A stretch of 64,000 nt of DNA, taken from contig NZ_JARBTM010000001.1 of the NCBI RefSeq assembly GCF_029240175.1, forward strand, positions 1 through 64,000. The letters are read 5' to 3'. Below the pieces are notes generated by a model that was given only the letters and a program-made list of their open reading frames with translations, had not been told where the DNA came from and ran no database searches. A program made the translations under genes and the position numbers. The DNA is from Anaerosolibacter sp. (GTDB lineage Bacteria; Bacillota; Clostridia; Peptostreptococcales; Thermotaleaceae). Of the stretch, positions 11,032 to 26,590 are shown one piece after another (position 1 is the stretch's first letter; the number at the start of each line of letters is the position of its first letter).

Positions 11032-11811
11032 TCAATTCGCAAATAGCTCTAATGTATGATGAACCAACTTTATATCTCCCCATTTACCGTGTCCTGGGAT
11101 AACAACTTCTGCATTTGAATATTTTTCTAACACCATTTCTACTGATAATGGCCATTGTTCTATATTGGCATCAGTCACACTCCCTAAATCCTGAGATTCC
11201 ATTGACTTTATCAAACACCCTCCAAATAATACCTTATCGTCTGAAAGCCATACTGTAATATTGTCTACAGCGTGCCCTTCCCCTGGATAAAAGATTTCAA
11301 AATTCTTATCTCCTATTAGGATAGTTTGTTCTGAAGTCAATTTAGGTTGTGGCGTTGCGAATCCGTTCTTCTCCGCATCCTGAGCAGTTTGACTTGTACT
11401 TAGAACATCAATTCCATTATCTATCAAGGTATCAATCCCACCGATTCTATCAACATGTGCATGGGTTATGATCGCTGTAGTAATCTCTTCATTAAATATT
11501 TTCTTGCTTAATTTCAATAGTTCTTTCATCTGTCCATTATTCCATGGTGTGTCGATTAACACTATGCCCTCTGCCGTAATTACCAACATACCGTTAGAAG
11601 GTGTTCTATAGCCATTATAATTTTCATAGCTGGTATGAACCCAAATATCGTCCTTCACCTTAGATAATTCTATATAATTTTGATCATTCGAACCACTCTT
11701 GTAGCTGCCCTCATCAACTTTAGGATAGCTATTAACATCAAGATTGCTTGAACAAGCAATCATACTAAGGGTAATAATCATAATAACGAATAACAGATAA
11801 ATTTTTTTCAT
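11032..11811 (-). CDS. Subclass B1 metallo-beta-lactamase, lipoprotein form
   Basis: 259 residues. Signal peptide with lipobox IAC (Cys20), so a membrane-tethered lipoprotein. All six B1 zinc ligands are visible: His117, His119 and Asp121 in THAHVDRIGG, His180 in GEGHAVDN, Cys199 in FGGCLIKS and His241 in IPGHGKWG. The lysine two residues after the cysteine (LIKS) is the substrate carboxylate contact of B1 enzymes such as BcII. ID-TPW and the WVHTSYENYNGYRTPSNGMLV strand pair also fit. Hydrolysis of penicillins, cephalosporins or carbapenems is expected, but the spectrum cannot be read from sequence. No mobile element flanks it. Confidence 0.88.
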   Translation of the reverse strand: MKKIYLLFVIMIITLSMIACSSNLDVNSYPKVDEGSYKSGSNDQNYIELSKVKDDIWVHTSYENYNGYRTPSNGMLVITAEGIVLIDTPWNNGQMKELLKLSKKIFNEEITTAIITHAHVDRIGGIDTLIDNGIDVLSTSQTAQDAEKNGFATPQPKLTSEQTILIGDKNFEIFYPGEGHAVDNITVWLSDDKVLFGGCLIKSMESQDLGSVTDANIEQWPLSVEMVLEKYSNAEVVIPGHGKWGDIKLVHHTLELFAN

Positions 11812-15224: not shown

Positions 15225-16136
15225 ATGGGGGCAATGCTGGTAAAAGCTATTTCATTAATTCTAATAATCGTGATTGGGTATACCATCAAGGGAGTTGGCT
15301 GGGTGAGCCTCAGTGATTTTCCTAAATTCTCAAAAATCGTCCTATGGATAACCTTGCCATGTGCGCTGGCTACTAGCTTTAATAAGTTTGAAATATCATA
15401 CAATCTACTGTTTTTAGTCGCAATTGGTATTGGCGTTAACCTTATCCAGCAGTTTGCCGGTTATTTAGCCAATCGCCACACCGATGCCAAGGAGCAGGCC
15501 TTTGGCATTCTCAACATCGGCAGCTACAATATCGGTGCCTTTGCCATGCCCTATATTTCAGGATTTATTGGCTCAGAATCAATAATTTTCGCCTCATTGT
15601 TTGATGTGGGCAATGCCATTGGAGCGGCAGGAATCGGCTACGGCTGTGCACTGTCGATTACCAATGAAAACGAAAAGACCACCATTGGACGCTTTCTAAA
15701 GAATATGTTACGCTCACCAGTGTTTGACACCTATTTATTTTTACTTATTATTCGCTTGATGGATTTGCATCTTCCAAACGCGGTGATTACCTTTACCTCA
15801 ACAGTTGGCAGTGCCAATACCTTTATGGCAATGCTTATGATTGGGATCGGGTTAGAACTACATTTGGATCAGAAGAAATTTAGGATGGCTTTCAAGTACC
15901 TAGGAATGCGCTATGGCTTTGCCCTGATATTTACTATAATCGTGGCCTTTTTCATACCCTTTCCCCACCAGGTTAAGACTGTTTTATGTATGCTGTTCTT
16001 TTCACCGATTGCATCTATGATAGCCGGCTTTACCAGCGATGTGAAGGGTGATGTGGAAACCTCAGCTTTTATGACCTCCTTCTCCATCATCATGGGGATC
16101 GTCTTAATGCCTATGGTTCTAATGATTATGGGTTAG
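15225..16136 (+). CDS. AEC family (auxin efflux carrier-type) transporter
   Basis: 303 residues with about ten membrane segments arranged in two halves. The family pattern is clear: LIIVIGYTIKGVGWVSLSDFPKFSKIVLWITLPCALATSF at the start, GSYNIGAFAMPYISGFIG and FASLFDVGNAIGAAG in the middle, and FFSPIASMIAGFTSDVKGDVETSAFMTSFSIIMGI at the end. Bacterial AEC proteins move dicarboxylates such as malate, or other organic anions. It ends 9 bases from the end of the convergent lyase gene, with no terminator between, so transcripts may overlap. Confidence 0.85.
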   Translation: MGAMLVKAISLILIIVIGYTIKGVGWVSLSDFPKFSKIVLWITLPCALATSFNKFEISYNLLFLVAIGIGVNLIQQFAGYLANRHTDAKEQAFGILNIGSYNIGAFAMPYISGFIGSESIIFASLFDVGNAIGAAGIGYGCALSITNENEKTTIGRFLKNMLRSPVFDTYLFLLIIRLMDLHLPNAVITFTSTVGSANTFMAMLMIGIGLELHLDQKKFRMAFKYLGMRYGFALIFTIIVAFFIPFPHQVKTVLCMLFFSPIASMIAGFTSDVKGDVETSAFMTSFSIIMGIVLMPMVLMIMG

Positions 16137-16145
16137 GCTCAATGA

Positions 16146-17666
16146 TCAACGAATGACTTTCTCTACAGAATCTAATATTTTTCTAGATTTAATCAACTTG
16201 TAGATCTTACGGATATCCTCAGATAGATTTCTATCTTGATCTAGGAATGGTATTTCTGAACGAATCACATCATACGCAGCCTTTGTCCCGACCCCTAATC
16301 TCGTGGCTTTTCGTAGATCTATAGCCTGTACCGCATGCATTGCCTCTATTCCCAATATATATATCAAATTGTCTACTATTCTTGCAGTTTTCTGTACCAC
16401 ATAAGGGGAGTTGTTTGCATGATCTTCTATATCTCCTGCCACTGAGAAATAATCCGCTGTAGCTGGATTAGATAAATGTCTGATTTCAGTATCCAAGGAG
16501 GTAAATGTCTTTTGAATGGTTGCGTATGCCAAAACTCTGCCGTCTGCAGGCGTTAAAAACCTTGATAGTCCAGTGAACTTTGGTGTGGCCAGCTTTATCG
16601 TTCTAAAGCATGCATTCCTTGAAAGATGGCTTAATGCCAGCCCTAGCATTTCGAAGCCCAATGTCCAAGTAGGAACTTCATAGTTTGCACAAGAAATAAT
16701 CCTATTTTCATCCATTATTAAGCATGGGTTATCGTCGGAGGAATTCAATTGAATGAGCATATGATTTTTAACATACCCTAGGGAATCCCGCACTGCCCCA
16801 TGGATTTGACAAGACCCCCTTAAGCTTAAAGGATCCTGCAAAGAATCCGTCACTCCTGGTAGCCATAAATAGCTTCCTTCCAATAGCTTTCGAACCCTGC
16901 TTGCACTAATGCTCTGTCCTTGATAAGGTCTAACGCTGTAAGCTGCTTCATCTAAGGGTGTTACATTCCCCTTAAAACCCTCCAAAGTCAATGCATACAC
17001 CACATCTGCCAAATCAACCAAATCTTCAATATCTTTCAGTACAAGGGCACCTTCTCCTGCTGATAAAGCATTGGAGCTAACAATCGCCAGCCCATCCTTA
17101 GGTCCAAGAACAATAGGCTCCATACCTGCTTTCTTAAAGGCTTCAGAGGCTTTCATTCTTTCTCCGTTATAGTTCACTTCTCCCTCTCCAATCATGGCCA
17201 GCCCTATATGGGAAAGAACCGTGATATCCCCTTCTCCAACGGAACCCCTTTGAGGAATGACAGGGTGAATTTTATTGTTTATCATATTCATATACATGGT
17301 GGCCACAGCTGGTTGTACACCTGTGCATCCAACAAGCAAGGTATTCAATCTCGCCAGCATTATGGCTCTAACATCATCTTCTTTTGCTTCCGGTTCAACA
17401 CCAAGACAATGGGATAGAATAAGATTTCTATTATATTCCTGATAATATCGAGCCACAACCTGTCGATCCTTATTCTCCCCTACGCCTCTTGTAAAGCCAT
17501 AAACCGGTATATCACTGTTCGCCATATCATAAACCATTTGTCTTCCCTGTTCCAGCTTCTTCATTGACTCACTGCTGATTCCAACTTGAGCCCCTTCTCT
17601 GGCAACCTTTGCCACCTCATGGATCGTAAGACTATTTCCATCCAGCATGATCATTTCTTGAATCAT
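16146..17666 (-). CDS. MIO-less aromatic-amino-acid-lyase homologue, candidate ergothionase
   Basis: 506 residues; the ATG at 17666 follows AGGGGGGAT. The lyase fold is clear: VYGFTRGVGENKD (56-67, in place of YGVNTGFG), PQRGSVGEGDITVLSHIG (138-155), SSNALSAGEGA, QDPLSLRGSCQIHGAVRD (278-294), NSSDDNPCLI and the ANYEVPTWTLGFEMLG helix. The key point is 141-148, GSVGEGDI: classic HAL/PAL enzymes have GSVGASGD, and Ala-Ser-Gly forms the MIO cofactor. Here the serine is absent, so MIO cannot form; reading the DNA excludes a frameshift. Known MIO-less relatives are ergothionases, which split ergothioneine into thiourocanate and trimethylamine by acid-base chemistry. The betaine transporter nearby supports a trimethylammonium substrate; hercynine-like betaines are the alternative. 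Confidence 0.8.
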   Translation of the reverse strand: MIQEMIMLDGNSLTIHEVAKVAREGAQVGISSESMKKLEQGRQMVYDMANSDIPVYGFTRGVGENKDRQVVARYYQEYNRNLILSHCLGVEPEAKEDDVRAIMLARLNTLLVGCTGVQPAVATMYMNMINNKIHPVIPQRGSVGEGDITVLSHIGLAMIGEGEVNYNGERMKASEAFKKAGMEPIVLGPKDGLAIVSSNALSAGEGALVLKDIEDLVDLADVVYALTLEGFKGNVTPLDEAAYSVRPYQGQSISASRVRKLLEGSYLWLPGVTDSLQDPLSLRGSCQIHGAVRDSLGYVKNHMLIQLNSSDDNPCLIMDENRIISCANYEVPTWTLGFEMLGLALSHLSRNACFRTIKLATPKFTGLSRFLTPADGRVLAYATIQKTFTSLDTEIRHLSNPATADYFSVAGDIEDHANNSPYVVQKTARIVDNLIYILGIEAMHAVQAIDLRKATRLGVGTKAAYDVIRSEIPFLDQDRNLSEDIRKIYKLIKSRKILDSVEKVIR

Positions 17667-17728: not shown

Positions 17729-19963
17729 TTACTTTTCGTGCAATGCTTTAATAATTTTTTCAGGTGTAACTGGCAAAGATGTAATATTTATATCCAAAGC
17801 AGCGTTAATGGCATTTACAATAGCTGGTGCAATGGCACATGTACTAATTTCACCTATACTCTTCGCTCCAAAGGGACCATGTTCTTCCCCTTCCTCTATA
17901 AGCAATACCTTAACATCAGGCATACTAGGCGCATTGATTACATGGTATTTGCTAAACTTATCTCCACTTATCTTTCCGTTACGATCCACTTTGATTTCTT
18001 CTGAAAGAGCAAATCCAATGCCCATTTGTATAGCCCCTTGCACCTGTCCCTCCACAAATCCAGGATTTATAGCCTTTCCTATATCATGGACAGCCAATAC
18101 ATCTAATACTTTTACAAGTCCTGTTAAAGTATCTACCTCTACCTCAACAAAATTTGCAGCATATACGCCAGGATTAGCTGGCGAAGTATACGTATAAGAC
18201 ACACTGATATCATCCTGGAACTTAGATTGAATGTCTGTTATCATTTTTCCATAGGAATACTTAACAGTCTCACTTGTAGAGGACCATACTTCCCCAGCCT
18301 CCATAACAACCTCCTCTGGAGAGCATTGAAGTATTTTGGAAGCACAACCAATAAACTTTTCTTTTACTTGCTCTGCCACCTTCATGGCACAGGAACCACA
18401 AACAAAGGTAACTCTACTGGCTTGTGTACCTGCTACATCAAAGGGACTTACTAAAGTATCCCCTTCTGGCGCCAGTATCTTATCTATTTCAACGTCAAGA
18501 ACCTCGGCTACAATCTGCTTCATGGTCATTACGGTTCCACACCCTAAGTCATGGATACCAGAGTTCAGAAACACCCCGCCATCCTCTGTCATTCTCAAAG
18601 ACATGGTAATAAAATCCTGATACCCCCCATGATATCCGTTACCATGGGTAGCACATGCCATGCCGACACCCCTGACGATACGGCCTGAGGTTTTGGGTCT
18701 TAACCGTTTTTGCTTCCAGTCAAAAACCTTCATTCCTTCTGTCACACAATCGATGGCTCTTGCATTTCCTAAATCGGGTCCATTTATAGGATCTTTGTCA
18801 AAGGGGTGAACCAAATTTCTCAATCTTAGCTCAGCTGGGTCCATCCCCAGTCTTCTCGCCACATTGTCCATATTTATTTCTGATAGGACATGAATCTGAG
18901 GAGAACCGTAACCTCTACAGGCTCCACCGATTGGCGTATTCGTATACACCACATCTCCAACAAACCGCTGATCCTTTATTTTATATAAGCGAAATGCCTT
19001 CTTCGCCATGGCCATGGTTACAGCATCCCCATTTGTATAGTAGGCACCAGTATCTACCAGCATATGGATATCTCTACCAAGTATCGTTCCATCTTCACTC
19101 ACTGCAGTTTTAATGGTTCCACGGGTAGCAGTTCTCGTTCTTGTACCAATGATACTCTCTGTACGATCCATTTGAAGCTTAACCGGCGCATTCATCGCCT
19201 TAGCTAAAAAGGCACACACAGGTTCTAAAACCGGTTGGCCTTTTCCTCCAAAGGAGCCTCCCATACTGGCTTTGATAGCTCTAACCTTGTTTAATGGCAT
19301 ACCCAATACTTCTGCCACTATCAGCCTTACTTGAAAAACTACTTGGCAAGGGGTCCATACAGTAACATCTCCATGGATACCCGGTGAAGCTACACATACA
19401 TGGGTTTCCATGGCAGCATGATGAATTTTAGGTGTTTCAACACTGTCCTCTATAATGATTGAAGCCTTAGAAAAAACATCATGCACACTGCCACTTTCTA
19501 TCTTCTTTTGGCCTATATAATAATCCTCTAAGTTTATGGCTTCCTCAGGGTCAACCACAACAGAAAGTTCTTCATATCCAATTTCAATTAGGTTAACTGC
19601 CCTCTCAGCAGTAAATCTATCCTTGGCTACAACTGCAGCAATTCTATCTCCCACAAACTTCACATGGTCTGTAAATAGTCGCTCATCCTTCGTTATCTCC
19701 ATACCTACAAACCATTTATGGGAATTATAGAGGGTATTCGGAGAATTTTCATGGGTAAAAATTTTCACTACACCTTCTAGCGCCTCTGCCTTCGATACAT
19801 CAATCTTTTTTATTCTTCCATGGGCCACGGAACTTAGCAAAAGTTTTCCATGAAGCATTCCAGGCAGCTGCATGTCAGCGGCATATTTCAACTTACCTGA
19901 TACCTTCTCTTTTACATCATGGATTGGAATAGATTTGCCAACATATTTAAGATCATTTTTCAT
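17729..19963 (-). CDS. Molybdenum hydroxylase large subunit (xanthine dehydrogenase family)
   Basis: 744 residues from the ATG at 19963 (GGAGG seven bases upstream); an in-frame ATG at 19990 is less likely. It has the Ald_Xan_dh_C domain (VSGKLKYAADMQLPGMLHGKLLLSSVAHGRI) and the molybdopterin domain: MGGSFGGKGQPVLEPV, GGACRGYGSPQIHVLSE (substrate arginine region) and GPFGAKSIGE with the catalytic glutamate. With the FAD and 2Fe-2S subunits it forms an LMS-type hydroxylase that adds oxygen from water to an N-heterocycle or aldehyde. The start overlaps the FAD-subunit stop by 11 bases. The true substrate is open; the downstream lyase hints at an imidazole product. Confidence 0.88.
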   Translation of the reverse strand: MKNDLKYVGKSIPIHDVKEKVSGKLKYAADMQLPGMLHGKLLLSSVAHGRIKKIDVSKAEALEGVVKIFTHENSPNTLYNSHKWFVGMEITKDERLFTDHVKFVGDRIAAVVAKDRFTAERAVNLIEIGYEELSVVVDPEEAINLEDYYIGQKKIESGSVHDVFSKASIIIEDSVETPKIHHAAMETHVCVASPGIHGDVTVWTPCQVVFQVRLIVAEVLGMPLNKVRAIKASMGGSFGGKGQPVLEPVCAFLAKAMNAPVKLQMDRTESIIGTRTRTATRGTIKTAVSEDGTILGRDIHMLVDTGAYYTNGDAVTMAMAKKAFRLYKIKDQRFVGDVVYTNTPIGGACRGYGSPQIHVLSEINMDNVARRLGMDPAELRLRNLVHPFDKDPINGPDLGNARAIDCVTEGMKVFDWKQKRLRPKTSGRIVRGVGMACATHGNGYHGGYQDFITMSLRMTEDGGVFLNSGIHDLGCGTVMTMKQIVAEVLDVEIDKILAPEGDTLVSPFDVAGTQASRVTFVCGSCAMKVAEQVKEKFIGCASKILQCSPEEVVMEAGEVWSSTSETVKYSYGKMITDIQSKFQDDISVSYTYTSPANPGVYAANFVEVEVDTLTGLVKVLDVLAVHDIGKAINPGFVEGQVQGAIQMGIGFALSEEIKVDRNGKISGDKFSKYHVINAPSMPDVKVLLIEEGEEHGPFGAKSIGEISTCAIAPAIVNAINAALDINITSLPVTPEKIIKALHEK

Positions 19964-20846
19964 TGTTACACCTCCAGGCTGGACTTCCAAACAAGTTGCT
20001 AAATGCGTCCTCAGATAAAGCTTTAACAGCCTCTCTTTTATATGGCCTAGAACTTCTTCCTGCTATGGAAATGTCAATCTGCGTTATTAGTGCCTTTTCA
20101 AATTCCGTTTGTAGTGAATCTGTTATATACTTTCCTACAAGCTCTATCTCTACCAAGTCAGATCGAAAAGCCTTTGGTCCAAGTGATCCCAATACCACTC
20201 TAGCGTCTTCAATAACACCGGTTTCATGATTATTTTTTACTACCACAGCCATATTCAGTTTCGCAATCGTTACTCTTTCTCTGCTTCCAACCTTTCCAAA
20301 GAAAGATTTATATCCATGACCTAAAACTGGTGCGATAACTTCAGTAATGACTTCATCCTTATGGAGGCTATTTTTCCCTGATCCTATAACGACCTCATCT
20401 ATATCCTTAAGAAAAAACTCTCCTTTAGCATTCATCATCTTAACTTTGACTCCCATGGCTATAAGCGCTGGAATTGCATCTGCCCCCGCAAATGCATTGG
20501 CAATATTCCCTCCAATAGTTGCAGCGTTTCTTATTTGAGTTGAACCAATTTGTTCAGCAGCTTGAACCAAGCACGGAGCATTCTTTATTAATATTTCACT
20601 ATGAATCATTTCAGTGAATGTAGTATTCGCACCAATGCAGATCGTTTGCTCTATTTGTCGTATATAATTTAATTCCTGGATACCTTTTAAATCAATAATT
20701 GTGCCGGAATATATTTTCTTTTCACGCAGCTTAATAATTAAATCAGTTCCTCCACTAATTAGATAGGTTTTCTCATCTGCATTGTCTAAATTCAATGCTA
20801 ATTCGTTTAAGGATGCTGGCATTTTAAAATTCATTTCATTCATCAT
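19953..20846 (-). CDS. Molybdenum hydroxylase FAD-binding subunit
   Basis: 297 residues of the CoxM/XdhB type. The FAD signatures are ISGGTDLIIKLREK (residues ~31-44), IGANTTFTEMIHS and the AEQIGSTQIRNAATIGGNIANAFAGADAIPALIAMG block, followed by a C-terminal domain with GRSSRPYKREAVKALSEDAF. It moves electrons from the iron-sulfur centres to an acceptor. It is the middle gene of the three-subunit operon: the 2Fe-2S gene ends 19 bases upstream and the molybdenum subunit overlaps its end. No second iron-sulfur insertion, of the kind seen in hydroxybenzoyl-CoA reductase, is evident. Confidence 0.88.
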   Translation of the reverse strand: MMNEMNFKMPASLNELALNLDNADEKTYLISGGTDLIIKLREKKIYSGTIIDLKGIQELNYIRQIEQTICIGANTTFTEMIHSEILIKNAPCLVQAAEQIGSTQIRNAATIGGNIANAFAGADAIPALIAMGVKVKMMNAKGEFFLKDIDEVVIGSGKNSLHKDEVITEVIAPVLGHGYKSFFGKVGSRERVTIAKLNMAVVVKNNHETGVIEDARVVLGSLGPKAFRSDLVEIELVGKYITDSLQTEFEKALITQIDISIAGRSSRPYKREAVKALSEDAFSNLFGSPAWRCNNEK

Positions 20847-20865: not shown

Positions 20866-21324
20866 CTATTGGTTTTGAATAGCTTCTTTGACAGCCCGAA
20901 CTATTTTGATATACCCTGTACACCTGCAAAGATTTCCTTCTATCGCAATTTTTATTTCTTCGTCTGTTGGATTTGGATTGTTCATAAGTAGCGCTTTACA
21001 GGACATGAGCATTCCAGGTGTACAATAACCACATTGAACTGCTCCATTGTTAATGAATGCCTCCTGTAATCGGTCCATCTCCCCATCCTGCTCCAGGGCT
21101 TCCACAGTAATGATCTTCTTTCCTCTTGCCTGATGGGCAAGGACCATACAGGAATTTATAGCCAAGCCATCCATAATGATTGTACAGGCCCCACATTCAC
21201 CTTCTCCACATCCTTCTTTTGCACCCGTCAACCCTAAATTTTCCCTTAGTACATCCAGCAATCTCATTCTTGGATTCACGTCCAGCTTATATTCTATGTC
21301 ATTTACGTTTATGATTAATTCCAT
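20866..21324 (-). CDS. Molybdenum hydroxylase 2Fe-2S subunit
   Basis: 152 residues from the ATG at 21324, which follows AAAGGGAG; a longer frame from 21360 is not supported. The plant-type cluster is CGEGECGACTIIMDGLAINSC (N-terminal, four cysteines) and the second cluster is in QCGYCTPGMLMSC with EGNLCRCTGYIKIVRAV. This is the usual small subunit of xanthine dehydrogenase-like enzymes. It is the first gene of the enzyme operon; the upstream BCCT gene is separated by a hairpin at 21447-21479. Confidence 0.9.
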   Translation of the reverse strand: MELIINVNDIEYKLDVNPRMRLLDVLRENLGLTGAKEGCGEGECGACTIIMDGLAINSCMVLAHQARGKKIITVEALEQDGEMDRLQEAFINNGAVQCGYCTPGMLMSCKALLMNNPNPTDEEIKIAIEGNLCRCTGYIKIVRAVKEAIQNQ

Positions 21325-21446
21325 CTTCCGACTCCCTTTCTTTAAACGTTTACCCCTCATATTTATTCTTCATATTTATCGTATACTATTTAAGTCAATA
21401 AAAAGTCAAGAAAGAACAAAGAACCTCTCATCTAATGCCTATGATA

Positions 21447-21490: not shown

Positions 21491-23083
21491 CTATTCAGCT
21501 TCTGACAATACTTCTTCATCGATGATTGCTGTTTCAGGACAATTCACCACATCATACTTCTCTTGTTTAATGATCATGTACATAGACGTAAAGGCCATAA
21601 CCACCATAAGGAATAAAATTGGGAAACCTGCCACTGTAGAAATCTGTTTGGTCGCATCTATACCACTGATCTTACCCCCTGCAGCCAATAAGTTTATGAT
21701 TGCTAAGGATGACATCACCACTCCCCAGAATATCTTAACCTTTCCTGGGGGCTCAACCTCGGCAGAATTAAAGGCTGTGGTTGAAAGGGAGGATATAGTG
21801 GAAGTCATGGAATCTGCTAGTGTAACGATGGAAACATATATGGCTATTATGTATATAACACTTGTAAGCCCTGATAATGGAAAATTTTTAAGGAATGAGA
21901 ACACAGCTACTTCATTTCCACTTGCCTGCATTGCTTCAAATATACCTGCACCATTCATTTGAAGATTTACCGCTGCTCCTCCAAATACGGAGAACCATAT
22001 TAATCCAAATGTAGCCGGAAGGACTAGATTCACCATCATAAACTGTTTGATTGTACGCCCCTTTGAGATTCTAGCGAAGAACATACCTGACAGCGGTGCA
22101 TAAGCCAACCAAATTGCCCAGTAGTAAATAGGCCACCATCTTGGCCATGGCGAACCATCAATTGGACTCAAGTAATGGGTTCTCTCAAAGAAGTTTTGAA
22201 TAAAATGTCCTGTTGATTGTGTTCCAAAGTTTAGAATGAATCTTGTAGGGCCAAATATGAAAACAAACACTAACATTACCATAAATAACTTGGCGTTATT
22301 GTCTGATAACCATCGGATACCTCTTTGTAGGCCTGTATAGCTTGAAATGATATAGGTTGCCACGATAACACCTACAATACCAATCCATAAAGCTTTACCA
22401 GTTTGAATTCCAGTTAGTATATTCAAGCCACTTCCAATTTGCATTGTTCCTACACCAAGAATAGCTGCAACACCCCCTGCAATAGCAAATAAACAAATAT
22501 TATCAACTACTGCACCAACTGTACCTTTGATTCTCTTACCAAACAAAGGATATAACATAGAGCTAACCTGAAATGGAAGCTTTGCATTATAAACAGCAAA
22601 GGCAATACCAATACCAGCTATGGCATACATAGCATATGGAATATAAGTCCAGTGAATTAATGTTTGTGTCATAGAAAACATTGCTGCTGCTTCACTTCCA
22701 GGCGTAAGGCCTAGAAAATCAGGTGGTGCATACATATGGGTTAACGGTTCAACAACACCCCAGAATAAAATTCCTGTTCCTATGCCTGCACATAGGGAAA
22801 TTGCAAACCAATTCCAATAGGAAAGCTCCGGCTTTGCATCCTTGCCTCCTAATTTGATATCTCCATATTTAGAAAACATTAGGTAAATACACATAAACAA
22901 AAAGATATTCCCTGAGATTTGGAACAACCATCCAAAGTTAACAAATGCAAATTCGGCAATCTTGTTTTCTGCATTAAAAAAGGCTTCCGGAGCAACCAAA
23001 CCCGTGACAATGGCAAGTATGAAAATAATAGACATTGGTATAAATATGGACATCCTCAAGTTTGCTTTGTTGATTTTAGACAT
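21491..23083 (-). CDS. BCCT family betaine/carnitine/choline transporter
   Basis: 530 residues with 12 membrane segments. Family landmarks: GWLFQISGNIFLFMCIYLMFSKYGDIKLGGKDAKPELSYWNWFAISLCAGIGTGILFWGVVEP (segments 2-3), WTYIPYAMYAIAGIGIAF, the aromatic box region PIYYWAIWLAYAPLSGMFFARISKGRTIKQF (segment 8) and the FARISKGRT loop. Uptake of a quaternary ammonium compound by ion coupling or exchange is expected. The regulator gene upstream ends with its own terminator, so BCCT has a separate promoter. Its place next to a MIO-less lyase fits import of ergothioneine or a similar trimethylammonium acid. Confidence 0.9.
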   Translation of the reverse strand: MSKINKANLRMSIFIPMSIIFILAIVTGLVAPEAFFNAENKIAEFAFVNFGWLFQISGNIFLFMCIYLMFSKYGDIKLGGKDAKPELSYWNWFAISLCAGIGTGILFWGVVEPLTHMYAPPDFLGLTPGSEAAAMFSMTQTLIHWTYIPYAMYAIAGIGIAFAVYNAKLPFQVSSMLYPLFGKRIKGTVGAVVDNICLFAIAGGVAAILGVGTMQIGSGLNILTGIQTGKALWIGIVGVIVATYIISSYTGLQRGIRWLSDNNAKLFMVMLVFVFIFGPTRFILNFGTQSTGHFIQNFFERTHYLSPIDGSPWPRWWPIYYWAIWLAYAPLSGMFFARISKGRTIKQFMMVNLVLPATFGLIWFSVFGGAAVNLQMNGAGIFEAMQASGNEVAVFSFLKNFPLSGLTSVIYIIAIYVSIVTLADSMTSTISSLSTTAFNSAEVEPPGKVKIFWGVVMSSLAIINLLAAGGKISGIDATKQISTVAGFPILFLMVVMAFTSMYMIIKQEKYDVVNCPETAIIDEEVLSEAE

Positions 23084-23280: not shown

Positions 23281-23306
23281 TAACGCCTGATTTATATCAG
23301 ACGTTA
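23281..23306 (-). terminator. Terminator of the BTAD/ATPase regulator gene
   Basis: Stem AACGCCTGA/TCAGACGTT with one G-U pair and a 6-base loop, overlapping the stop codon of the regulator, followed on the minus strand by AATTTTTAT. Confidence 0.75.
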
Positions 23307-26300
23307 GTTTTTATCTGTTTTTCTTAATTCTTTTAATCGTTCTACTTCATAGCATCCTTGTAGATCTTTAAACATATTCATTGCTTCATTGCAGTATTCC
23401 TTTATATCCCTCTCCAAATATCCTTCGAAGATCCTATTTAATCTAGGTATCTTATCCATTAAGGCTCTTATCTCCGCCTTTGCCTTCAAGACCAGCCCTA
23501 ACTCGTAGGGACTTTTAAGTTTTTTTGCATCTGTTTCTGCATCAACAAGCTGTTTTAAGGCACTCTCATATTTCTTTTCCTCGATGAAAAGGAGAGCTGT
23601 ATAAGCCTTTGCAGTAGACCGCCCCCAAAGAAAATCCAGCTGAGAATAATAACCTAGGGACTTTGTCAGAAAAAATCTTGCGCCCTCGTAATCTCCCTTA
23701 TCAAAAGCAGCTTGTCCAGCATTTGTATAAAAAATGGTTACTCCCCGAAGAACACTACTCTCTTCACATATGGTTATCGCCTTGCTATAATACTCAATAG
23801 CTTCATCAAATTTACACTGATGACGTTTACTTTCACCAATGAAGTTATAGCAAGCTGCAATATTCAAAACATAATAGTTGTGATCATTTAACATCTTGAA
23901 AACAAAGATAGCTTGCTCAAGTAGAGATTCAGCCTCAGCATATTTTGCCTCCATAATCTTTAGATAGCCTTTGAGTCTCAGGAGAATGGCCATCTCTCCT
24001 TTTTCTCCACTAATTTCCGTTATCTCCAATGCCTTAGATAAATATTCTCCCATCTCCCCAGTATTTTGCGTGTTTATACAATAGTATATCAACTGTCTAT
24101 AACCCTTTAGTACATAACCCCAATTATTGGTCTCCACAGCCTTTGGAATAATCTCCCTAATGATATCTAAACCCTTCCCATACTCTCCCTGGGTTATATG
24201 AAATCTTCCTATCATCAGAAGGTATAATAACTCCAGCTCATCAATAGTGTCCTGTCCTTCCTCTACTTCTTCTTTCACCTCTTGTAATAGGATATTCAGC
24301 TCCTTTAATTGTCTTAGGGCTTCTTCCGGTTTTAGATAAAGATATTGACTCTGCTTAAGACCTGTACTGCTTAACACAGGAAATATCTCATGGCTAAAAT
24401 GAAGACACTCTTCAAGGTTCTTGATGCTATACTTTAGGGCAGCTAATTTATTGCCCCCATTCACAAAATGATAAATAAGCTTTGAATATAGCTCTCTATC
24501 AGATTTCTTATTCTTAAGACTTCCTTCTAAAATCGCTGCAGCCCTATTGTGAAGAATTCTCCTGCGAGAGTGGGAAAGTTCATTGTAAATATATTCCCTT
24601 AGTTTTTGGTGAGTAAAAACAAAGCCTACTTCATTGCCAAGGACTACCTCTTTGATCAGACGCTTATTTCGAAGCTCATCCATGATGTCCATAAGCTCCA
24701 ATTCATTCTTGCCACTTAATTCATACAGGCTTTGATAATATACTTTATCAAAATAGATTGAAGCGATATTTAGGATTTTTTGCCCTTCTTCTGACACATT
24801 TAATATTCTATTCTTCAAAATATCCTTCATTTTAGGTGTAATTGTATCCATGTGAAGGTTGTGCTTAATATTATTCAAATACTCAACAAGAAAAAATGTA
24901 TTTCCTTCTGTTTCGTTATAAATGATTTCCTTTTGCTCCTCTGGAATGCTTTGAGATAACAGGGCCTCAGCAAACTCATACACTTCACTTCGGTTAAATC
25001 GGCCAACCTCAAGTTTTCTTAGTAAGCCATAACATAACATATCGCTTAAGAAACGTTCCACCTTATGGGCATATGCATCTCTGCAAGTGGCCATTATTAT
25101 AATTGACTCATTCTGTGTTTCCTGGAGAATAGTTCTGAGCAAGGATAAGCTTATGTCATCCGCCCATTGAAGGTCTTCAATATGTATGATGATTTTGGCT
25201 CGCTCTGCCACCTTTTTTAATATACTCACAATGGTCTTTTCTGCCACTTGAAACTTCAGTATGTCTATTTTTTCTACTGGATTTATATCAGCTGCCTTGG
25301 AATGTATATCAACCATAGGAAAGATATATCCTACGATATTCCTCCACAGCAAAGGGATCTCTATACTATATTCATTTATGTATTTAGATAAACTCTGAAA
25401 GATTCCGTTCCAGGGCTTTAACAAATATCTCTCTTCTGCTTCATAGCAGTACCCTGTAAAAATGGGGAGTTTATCATTGCTTCTCATGATAAACTGCTCC
25501 ATAAGTTTTGTTTTGCCTATCCCGGCTTCTCCGAGGATAATAATACTCGTCCCATGTTTGCCTTCTATAAACCTTTTATAGTTTTGGCTTAGTATATTCA
25601 GCTCTTTGCCTCTGCCATAAAAAAATTCATCGGCTTCATACTCTTTTATATTTTCTCGGAGGTTTTTTTCTTTAAGTAATGCATCAAAGGCTTCTTCCGT
25701 TTTAGCATCTGGCGGAATAGATAATTCTCTATTTAACACCTCTAGCAACCTATTATATGTCTCTATTCCTTTGTTGAAGAATCCTTGCATCCCATATATC
25801 TTCATTAAGCTTCTATAGGCTTCCTCATCCAATTCATCCGCTTTTATCAACAACTTACAGTAAGATTCTGCCTCTGTTAGCTTATTGGATGAGAAGTACT
25901 TCTTTATCGCCCTATGGAGCTTTTGAATATATAGATCTCTATAGCTTTCCCTGCTTTGAAACATCCACTGCTCAAAATTCTCAGCATCTTTCACTAACAA
26001 ACCGTGCAAGAACTCTCCTTGGTACACATCTATACTACCGATCTCATCATTATTAAAAAACTGTTCTATATCTGTTTCCCATGATATTTCTTCATTTAAA
26101 ACGACAATTGATCTTTGGGGAGATTGTACGATTTCTTCTTCAAAAACCCTGCGTAACATATATATGGCATTTCTTAAATTCTTTTTCGCTACGTTCTCAT
26201 CCAGTTCTGCCCATAACAGATTTACCAATTCATCCCGGGTAGCCTGTTTTCGTACCATCAGATAGTAGAATAAGGCCTCCGCCTTTTTAAATGGAAAGGT

Positions 26301-26363
26301 AACCAAATGACCATTGCATATCGTTTTCGGTGTTCCCAAAAGCAACACTTTTATTCTAATCAT
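23304..26363 (-). CDS. Large transcriptional regulator: winged helix, BTAD, ATPase and TPR
   Basis: 1019 residues from the ATG at 26363 (GGGGAGG upstream). Residues ~1-95 form a SARP/OmpR-like winged helix (TFPFKKAEALFYYLMVRKQATRDELVNLLWAEL...KKNLRNAIYMLRRVF); 96-240 are a BTAD domain ending ELSIPPDAKTEEAFDALL; 278-285 is a Walker A (GEAGIGKT) in a STAND-type ATPase with RAKIIIHIEDLQWADD as Walker B; after about residue 650 come TPR-like repeats (YAEAESLLEQAIFVF, FDEAIEYYSKAITI, YEGARFFLTKSLGYY). Such proteins switch on nearby catabolic operons when a ligand or partner binds the repeats. It most likely controls the BCCT, hydroxylase and lyase genes. Confidence 0.88.
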   Translation of the reverse strand: MIRIKVLLLGTPKTICNGHLVTFPFKKAEALFYYLMVRKQATRDELVNLLWAELDENVAKKNLRNAIYMLRRVFEEEIVQSPQRSIVVLNEEISWETDIEQFFNNDEIGSIDVYQGEFLHGLLVKDAENFEQWMFQSRESYRDLYIQKLHRAIKKYFSSNKLTEAESYCKLLIKADELDEEAYRSLMKIYGMQGFFNKGIETYNRLLEVLNRELSIPPDAKTEEAFDALLKEKNLRENIKEYEADEFFYGRGKELNILSQNYKRFIEGKHGTSIIILGEAGIGKTKLMEQFIMRSNDKLPIFTGYCYEAEERYLLKPWNGIFQSLSKYINEYSIEIPLLWRNIVGYIFPMVDIHSKAADINPVEKIDILKFQVAEKTIVSILKKVAERAKIIIHIEDLQWADDISLSLLRTILQETQNESIIIMATCRDAYAHKVERFLSDMLCYGLLRKLEVGRFNRSEVYEFAEALLSQSIPEEQKEIIYNETEGNTFFLVEYLNNIKHNLHMDTITPKMKDILKNRILNVSEEGQKILNIASIYFDKVYYQSLYELSGKNELELMDIMDELRNKRLIKEVVLGNEVGFVFTHQKLREYIYNELSHSRRRILHNRAAAILEGSLKNKKSDRELYSKLIYHFVNGGNKLAALKYSIKNLEECLHFSHEIFPVLSSTGLKQSQYLYLKPEEALRQLKELNILLQEVKEEVEEGQDTIDELELLYLLMIGRFHITQGEYGKGLDIIREIIPKAVETNNWGYVLKGYRQLIYYCINTQNTGEMGEYLSKALEITEISGEKGEMAILLRLKGYLKIMEAKYAEAESLLEQAIFVFKMLNDHNYYVLNIAACYNFIGESKRHQCKFDEAIEYYSKAITICEESSVLRGVTIFYTNAGQAAFDKGDYEGARFFLTKSLGYYSQLDFLWGRSTAKAYTALLFIEEKKYESALKQLVDAETDAKKLKSPYELGLVLKAKAEIRALMDKIPRLNRIFEGYLERDIKEYCNEAMNMFKDLQGCYEVERLKELRKTDKN

Positions 26364-26590
26364 ATAGTCCTCCCCATTTTTTCTCAAAACTTCAATTTAT
26401 TTGTCTCTTATGATTCCTTCGTCCATTACTTTTGTAGTAAAAAGCTTATGTACTATTCTGATTTATCTATATTTTACCATAAATTCAAACCACTATTAAA
26501 CTATAATTATCTTTGAAGTGTCATGCTTCACCGTCCATTTAATCTAGTTGTGATAACCCACGAAATGACTTGTGATTAGAAGCATACCCT

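Follow-up and report, generated by a model that had tools for sequence, protein, structure and literature searches.

The lyase gene lies on the reverse strand of the window, the stretch of 64,000 nucleotides from Anaerosolibacter sp. that was analysed here. Upstream of it, on the same strand, are the genes of a three-subunit molybdenum enzyme and those for a BCCT transporter and a BTAD-AAA-TPR regulator (Table 1). A gene at 15225-16136 (+), convergent with the lyase gene, encodes a 303-aa membrane transporter-like protein whose match to the SBF family is weak and below threshold. Elsewhere in the window, the protein encoded on the reverse strand at 11032-11811 scores above the cut-off of the NCBIfam model for subclass B1 metallo-beta-lactamases (269.9 versus 200).

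Table 1. Features of the lyase gene and of the genes upstream of it, in window coordinates.
Feature	Position	Strand	Basis
Ergothionase-family lyase, 506 aa, PF00221 fold, without MIO triad	16146..17666	-	Identity to 6s7j, model, tree
Leu280, aligned to MIO-linked Tyr280 of P. putida HAL	16827..16829	-	
Ser197, aligned to MIO-linked Asn195 of P. putida HAL	17076..17078	-	
GSVGEGDI loop, residues 141-148; Glu-Gly replaces MIO-forming Ala-Ser-Gly, one residue shorter	17223..17246	-	
Front motif YGFTRGVGENKD, residues 56-67, with clade-invariant Tyr56 and Asn65-Lys66-Asp67	17466..17501	-	
Mo-binding subunit, xanthine-dehydrogenase-like; candidate reductive thiourocanate desulfhydrase	17729..19990	-	PF02738, PF20256, PF01315
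FAD-binding subunit of xanthine-dehydrogenase-like Mo enzyme	19953..20846	-	PF00941, PF03450
[2Fe-2S] subunit of xanthine-dehydrogenase-like Mo enzyme	20866..21360	-	PF01799, PF00111
BCCT-family betaine-type transporter, candidate ergothioneine importer	21491..23083	-	PF02028 (E 3e-145); adjoins lyase in many related loci
Large BTAD/AAA/TPR regulator, candidate operon regulator	23304..26387	-	PF03704, PF13191, PF13424; homologues in related loci

The loop that carries the MIO-forming triad reads GS(V/L)G-ASG-D in HAL, PAL and TAL enzymes and GSVG-EG-DI in the window lyase. When the protein was aligned with the genome's own canonical HutH, whose loop is GSLGASGDLAPL, the window loop was one residue shorter and lacked the serine. 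In the alignment with HutH and P. putida HAL, a gap stands where the MIO-forming Ser143 would be, and Glu-Gly occupies the place of Ala-Gly. A first-pass annotation made from the letters alone had reported just this, a replaced triad with the serine gone and the loop shortened by one residue, and its interval (17222-17252) includes the loop. It had named an alternative triad in a corrected alignment as the outcome that would speak against it; a scan with the pattern [ASTCG][SC]G found no triad in the whole 506-aa protein. The front motif, also noted there as changed, is indeed YGFTRGVGENKD. The open reading frame is intact. Compared with its closest homologue, which is from Thermotalea and 79% identical, dN is 0.14 and dS is saturated, so that dN/dS is not computable. 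These values argue against decay, in agreement with the first reading, and this explanation was rejected. Judged from its sequence, the lyase is intact and under constraint.

The altered loop is accompanied by changes at the residues that surround the MIO group. Asn195 and Tyr280 of HAL are the partners of MIO. Both were kept in all 17 MIO lyases of our alignment and replaced in all 63 triad-less proteins, indicating that MIO and the residues known to partner it were lost together. Compared with P. putida HAL (1b8f), the window lyase shares the fold and keeps Tyr53, His83, Arg283 and Glu414 but has no Ala-Ser-Gly, and carries Ser for Asn195, Leu for Tyr280 and Glu for His330. In favour of an ordinary HAL, or another aromatic amino acid ammonia-lyase, that builds its MIO from an unusual triad there is little beyond the PF00221 fold and an identity of 37% to the HutH of this genome. 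With no triad to hide and both partner residues replaced, with scores under the cut-offs of the NCBIfam HutH models (393.9 versus 524 and 380 versus 539.15), and with a separate canonical HutH in the genome, this proposal is barely credible, and a HAL with a hidden triad was dropped from consideration. The name "histidine ammonia-lyase" would thus be wrong, as had been suspected. The accompanying expectation that an annotation pipeline would nevertheless assign it does not apply to the curated models: because the scores fall well under the cut-offs, a pipeline built on them would assign nothing more specific than a generic lyase name. Nor did the protein match any ergothionase model in NCBIfam.

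Searches against solved structures pointed to a different enzyme. The best match of the window lyase was the ergothionase of T. denticola (6s7j, 6s7q), with an E-value of 1.1e-156 and 49% identity over the full length, and the next best was a HAL (E 4.9e-69). Since a single-sequence AF2 model was unusable (pLDDT 32.6), the structure was predicted from a 48-row alignment of relatives (pLDDT 90.9, pTM 0.92). The resulting model matched 6s7j best (Z 49.2, rmsd 2.0 over 496 residues, TM 0.93/0.95), ahead of T. acidophilum HAL (Z 46.0) and P. putida HAL (Z 43.8, rmsd 1.8), so that ergothionase, which the first-pass annotation had suggested for an overlay, was the right comparison. Besides the fold, the two proteins have in common a triad-less loop (SSIGEGDIT in T. 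denticola, GSVGEGDIT here), the RGVGxNKD motif (the T. denticola front motif is YGLNRGVGWNKD) and the replacement of both Asn195 and Tyr280. They differ in the residues before the loop (SSI versus GSV) and at two positions of the front motif, where Asn and Trp of the T. denticola enzyme correspond to Thr59 and Glu64, and they belong to different sub-branches of the clade.

In order to place the protein among its relatives, contigs were scanned with an alignment of the window lyase and the T. denticola ergothionase, with patterns that included RGVG[EW]NKD. This gave 56 loci, and 40 related genomes that were searched as well yielded further relatives. In the tree built from 90 lyases, a branch with a support of 100 set apart the 63 triad-less short-loop proteins, including those of T. 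denticola and both copies of [Clostridium] symbiosum, and the split remained at 100/100 when more MIO outgroups were added. The triad-less state was found in 63/63 ergothionase-like proteins and 0/17 MIO lyases, a distribution that excludes chance. The window lyase groups beside relatives from Thermotalea and Alkaliphilus, between the T. denticola group and a Paenibacillus group. The loop had been put forward as a possible clade marker in the form GSVGE-D-I; the triad-less loop does mark the clade, while its exact wording varies, the first position being E, A, D, Q or M and the second A, G, D or S.

Apart from the missing serine, the invariant features of the clade are Tyr56, Asn65-Lys66-Asp67, Asp147, Asp191, Leu280, Arg283 and Glu414, all of which the window lyase has; the count for Asn-Lys-Asp is inflated by the search pattern RGVG[EW]NKD, but six proteins from the search of 40 genomes (L060-L065) were found without it. 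Such conservation bears on whether the protein could be a catalytically dead lyase retained for structure or regulation, as the loss of the canonical catalytic group might suggest. Clade-wide invariance of Tyr56, Asn65-Lys66-Asp67, Asp147, Asp191, Arg283 and Glu414, the low dN against a saturated dS, and the fact that a characterised enzyme, that of T. denticola, shares the loop make this very improbable, and a dead enzyme was likewise rejected. A degenerate DNA pattern for RGVGxNKD, also run on 198 genomes from the order, allows neither CGN arginine codons nor most residues at position 64; genomes known to carry the gene escaped it, and it is therefore uninformative on frequency. One match in a genome of the same family (G013:C8:90232-91740, L064) is ergothionase-like and was listed with one TAA within the matched range, although a 504-aa open frame was recovered there.

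Together, the loss of the triad, Asn195 and Tyr280, the loop and NKD motif, the predicted fold, the clade and the operon are the basis on which we call the window lyase an ergothionase. It is very probably an MIO-less lyase of the HAL fold that converts the antioxidant ergothioneine, a betaine of 2-thiol-histidine, to thiourocanate and trimethylamine. The loss of MIO had been regarded as an anomaly. The same loop occurs, however, in the T. denticola ergothionase of solved structure, and a 2026 paper (PMC13405746) states that ergothionase lacks the MIO cofactor, citing the structure paper of Maurer 2019. The most striking point of the finding is therefore already known: the window lyase belongs to an enzyme family already described, its gene lies in a recognisable catabolic operon, and its lack of MIO is not new. 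In the proposed mechanism, the enzyme would take the beta proton and expel trimethylamine by acid/base catalysis, for which Tyr56, Lys66, Asp147, Lys190/Asp191 and Glu414 are candidate residues. The MIO electrophile, which ammonia-lyases require, would be dispensable because the quaternary trimethylammonium group leaves readily.

The substrate range could be shifted, since Thr59 and Glu64 replace the Asn and Trp of most relatives. These departures from the T. denticola enzyme might even indicate an MIO-less betaine lyase for a relative of ergothioneine, such as ergothioneine sulfonate, S-methyl-ergothioneine or hercynine. NCBIfam separates S-methyl-thiourocanate from thiourocanate enzymes, which implies that such substrates exist, and the clade varies, one deep sub-branch having xLKDAHT in place of GPKDGL. 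The window lyase, however, retains GPKDGL, Asp311 and the other features of the T. denticola pattern. Its position in the tree is thus between two groups tied to ergothioneine, as the Paenibacillus group has neighbours that score as thiourocanate and thiohydantoin enzymes, and the adjoining molybdenum enzyme suits the removal of sulfur. We regard a relative of ergothioneine as an unlikely substrate. The deep sub-branch itself (L045:9578, L046:802, L047:9989, L048:10241, L049:9935 and L050:9569) also has Ser for Asp311, and its members may act on another substrate.

The genes upstream of the lyase are consistent with an ergothionase. Through the BCCT transporter and the molybdenum enzyme of its operon, the lyase is linked to the import and degradation of a thio-imidazole betaine, and the molybdenum enzyme's Mo, FAD and Fe-S subunits are of the xanthine-oxidase family. 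Both neighbours recur with the lyase, the Mo subunit family in 32 and the BCCT family in 29 of 54 related loci, many of them from anaerobes, and molybdenum cofactor genes (MobA-like, XdhC-type, MoaC and MoCF-type) lie near some of these loci. The Mo subunit scores under every NCBIfam equivalog cut-off, and its nearest solved relative is the alpha subunit of 4-hydroxybenzoyl-CoA reductase. That enzyme is a reductive member of the xanthine-dehydrogenase-like family.

In gut ergothioneine catabolism, a xanthine-oxidase homologue cleaves the C-S bond reductively (Feng et al., JACS 2025, as reported in PMC12771579 and PMC13405746). The window shares with that pathway, as there described, a three-subunit xanthine-dehydrogenase-like molybdenum enzyme directly upstream of the lyase, and a similar arrangement is seen in many related anaerobes, including [Clostridium] symbiosum (L039). 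By this analogy, the window operon appears to fit the gut pathway. The molybdenum enzyme probably performs the reductive desulfurization of thiourocanate, although it could act on another heterocycle instead.

There is a second, aerobic-type route, by thiourocanate hydratase and thiohydantoin desulfurase (NCBIfam NF058530 and NF058529), whose first enzyme in Paenibacillus and Bacillaceae loci is a lyase that belongs to the clade of the window lyase; the window operon differs in that it carries the molybdenum enzyme instead. Beside these sister-group lyases, in the loci sampled, one neighbour scored as thiourocanate hydratase (L010) and one as thiohydantoin desulfurase (L008), both above cut-off, whereas neither the molybdenum enzyme nor the BCCT transporter was present in the Paenibacillus and Bacillaceae loci within the stretch examined. 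Paenibacillus and Bacillaceae relatives (L008-L010, L012-L017, L021 and L055-L057) have an Ala-Ala-Asp loop, and in their loci an OpuAC-type ABC transporter and genes of the urocanase and thiohydantoin-desulfurase types replace those for BCCT and molybdenum enzyme. The window genome has a single urocanase, an ordinary HutU (445 versus a cut-off of 375) that is far under the cut-off for thiourocanate hydratase (314 versus 930). It is encoded away from the lyase as part of hutU-ftcD-hutI.

The most likely route thus leads from ergothioneine to thiourocanate and trimethylamine, then to urocanate and H2S, and then through the Hut enzymes. The BCCT transporter would import ergothioneine, and the lyase would act on it as proposed above. 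The molybdenum enzyme would then reductively desulfurize thiourocanate to urocanate and H2S, with electrons supplied through the FAD and Fe-S subunits, and HutU, FtcD and HutI would carry urocanate on to glutamate. Use of the trimethylamine through MttB was considered and dropped, as no member of that family was found in the window genome, which is 96.5% complete.

In these proteins, what looks like a lost catalytic group is what distinguishes a defined family of enzymes. A 2026 paper found ergothionase in a few genera, by BLAST with the Burkholderia sequence. The operon of BCCT transporter, molybdenum enzyme and ergothionase is spread over anaerobic Firmicutes, well beyond those few genera, which bears on the amount of ergothioneine converted to trimethylamine and H2S. 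As no NCBIfam ergothionase model was matched, such genes probably bear generic names.

A second group of MIO-less lyases, with the loop GSVGY---L, may be a more novel lead than the window lyase. It comprises 18 proteins, namely eleven copies in nine related loci (two in L046) and one in each of seven stretches from genomes of the window's family, among them L082:4968-6518, L043:13253-14794, L035:12688-14241(-) and L011:13394-14920. Tyr280 is replaced by Leu in all 18 and Asn195 by Ser in 16, and an acidic residue stands in place of His330 in every one, a feature common to this clade and the ergothionases. The GSVGY---L lyases form one clade (100/100), which the best tree places among the MIO lyases and away from the ergothionases. 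A single origin of both MIO-less clades was set aside on the strength of that tree, although grouping the two together is not rejected (p-AU 0.132). No solved structure of the GSVGY---L clade was found, the nearest solved relatives being MIO HALs, and the literature searched yielded no paper on a hercynine lyase of this kind. L082 passes the NCBIfam histidine ammonia-lyase cut-off (526.2 versus 524), so that the concern about a wrong name, raised for the window lyase, applies to this clade.

Several GSVGY---L lyases adjoin a BCCT transporter of their own. From the transporter and the parallel losses, our guess is that the clade consists of betaine trimethylamine-lyases. More broadly, we tentatively raise the possibility, though doubtful, that the HAL fold has lost MIO at least twice, that this loss marks lyases of quaternary ammonium betaines generally, and that the GSVGY---L proteins are an unrecognised trimethylamine-lyase for another betaine, for example hercynine. 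Whether quaternary leaving groups do away with the need for MIO could be tested directly on this clade. A partial copy is also present in the window's own genome, where contig C1 ends (G000:C1:1-408, L088); it stops at KEGSV, just before the loop, and adjoins a BCCT transporter and a sigma-54 activator.
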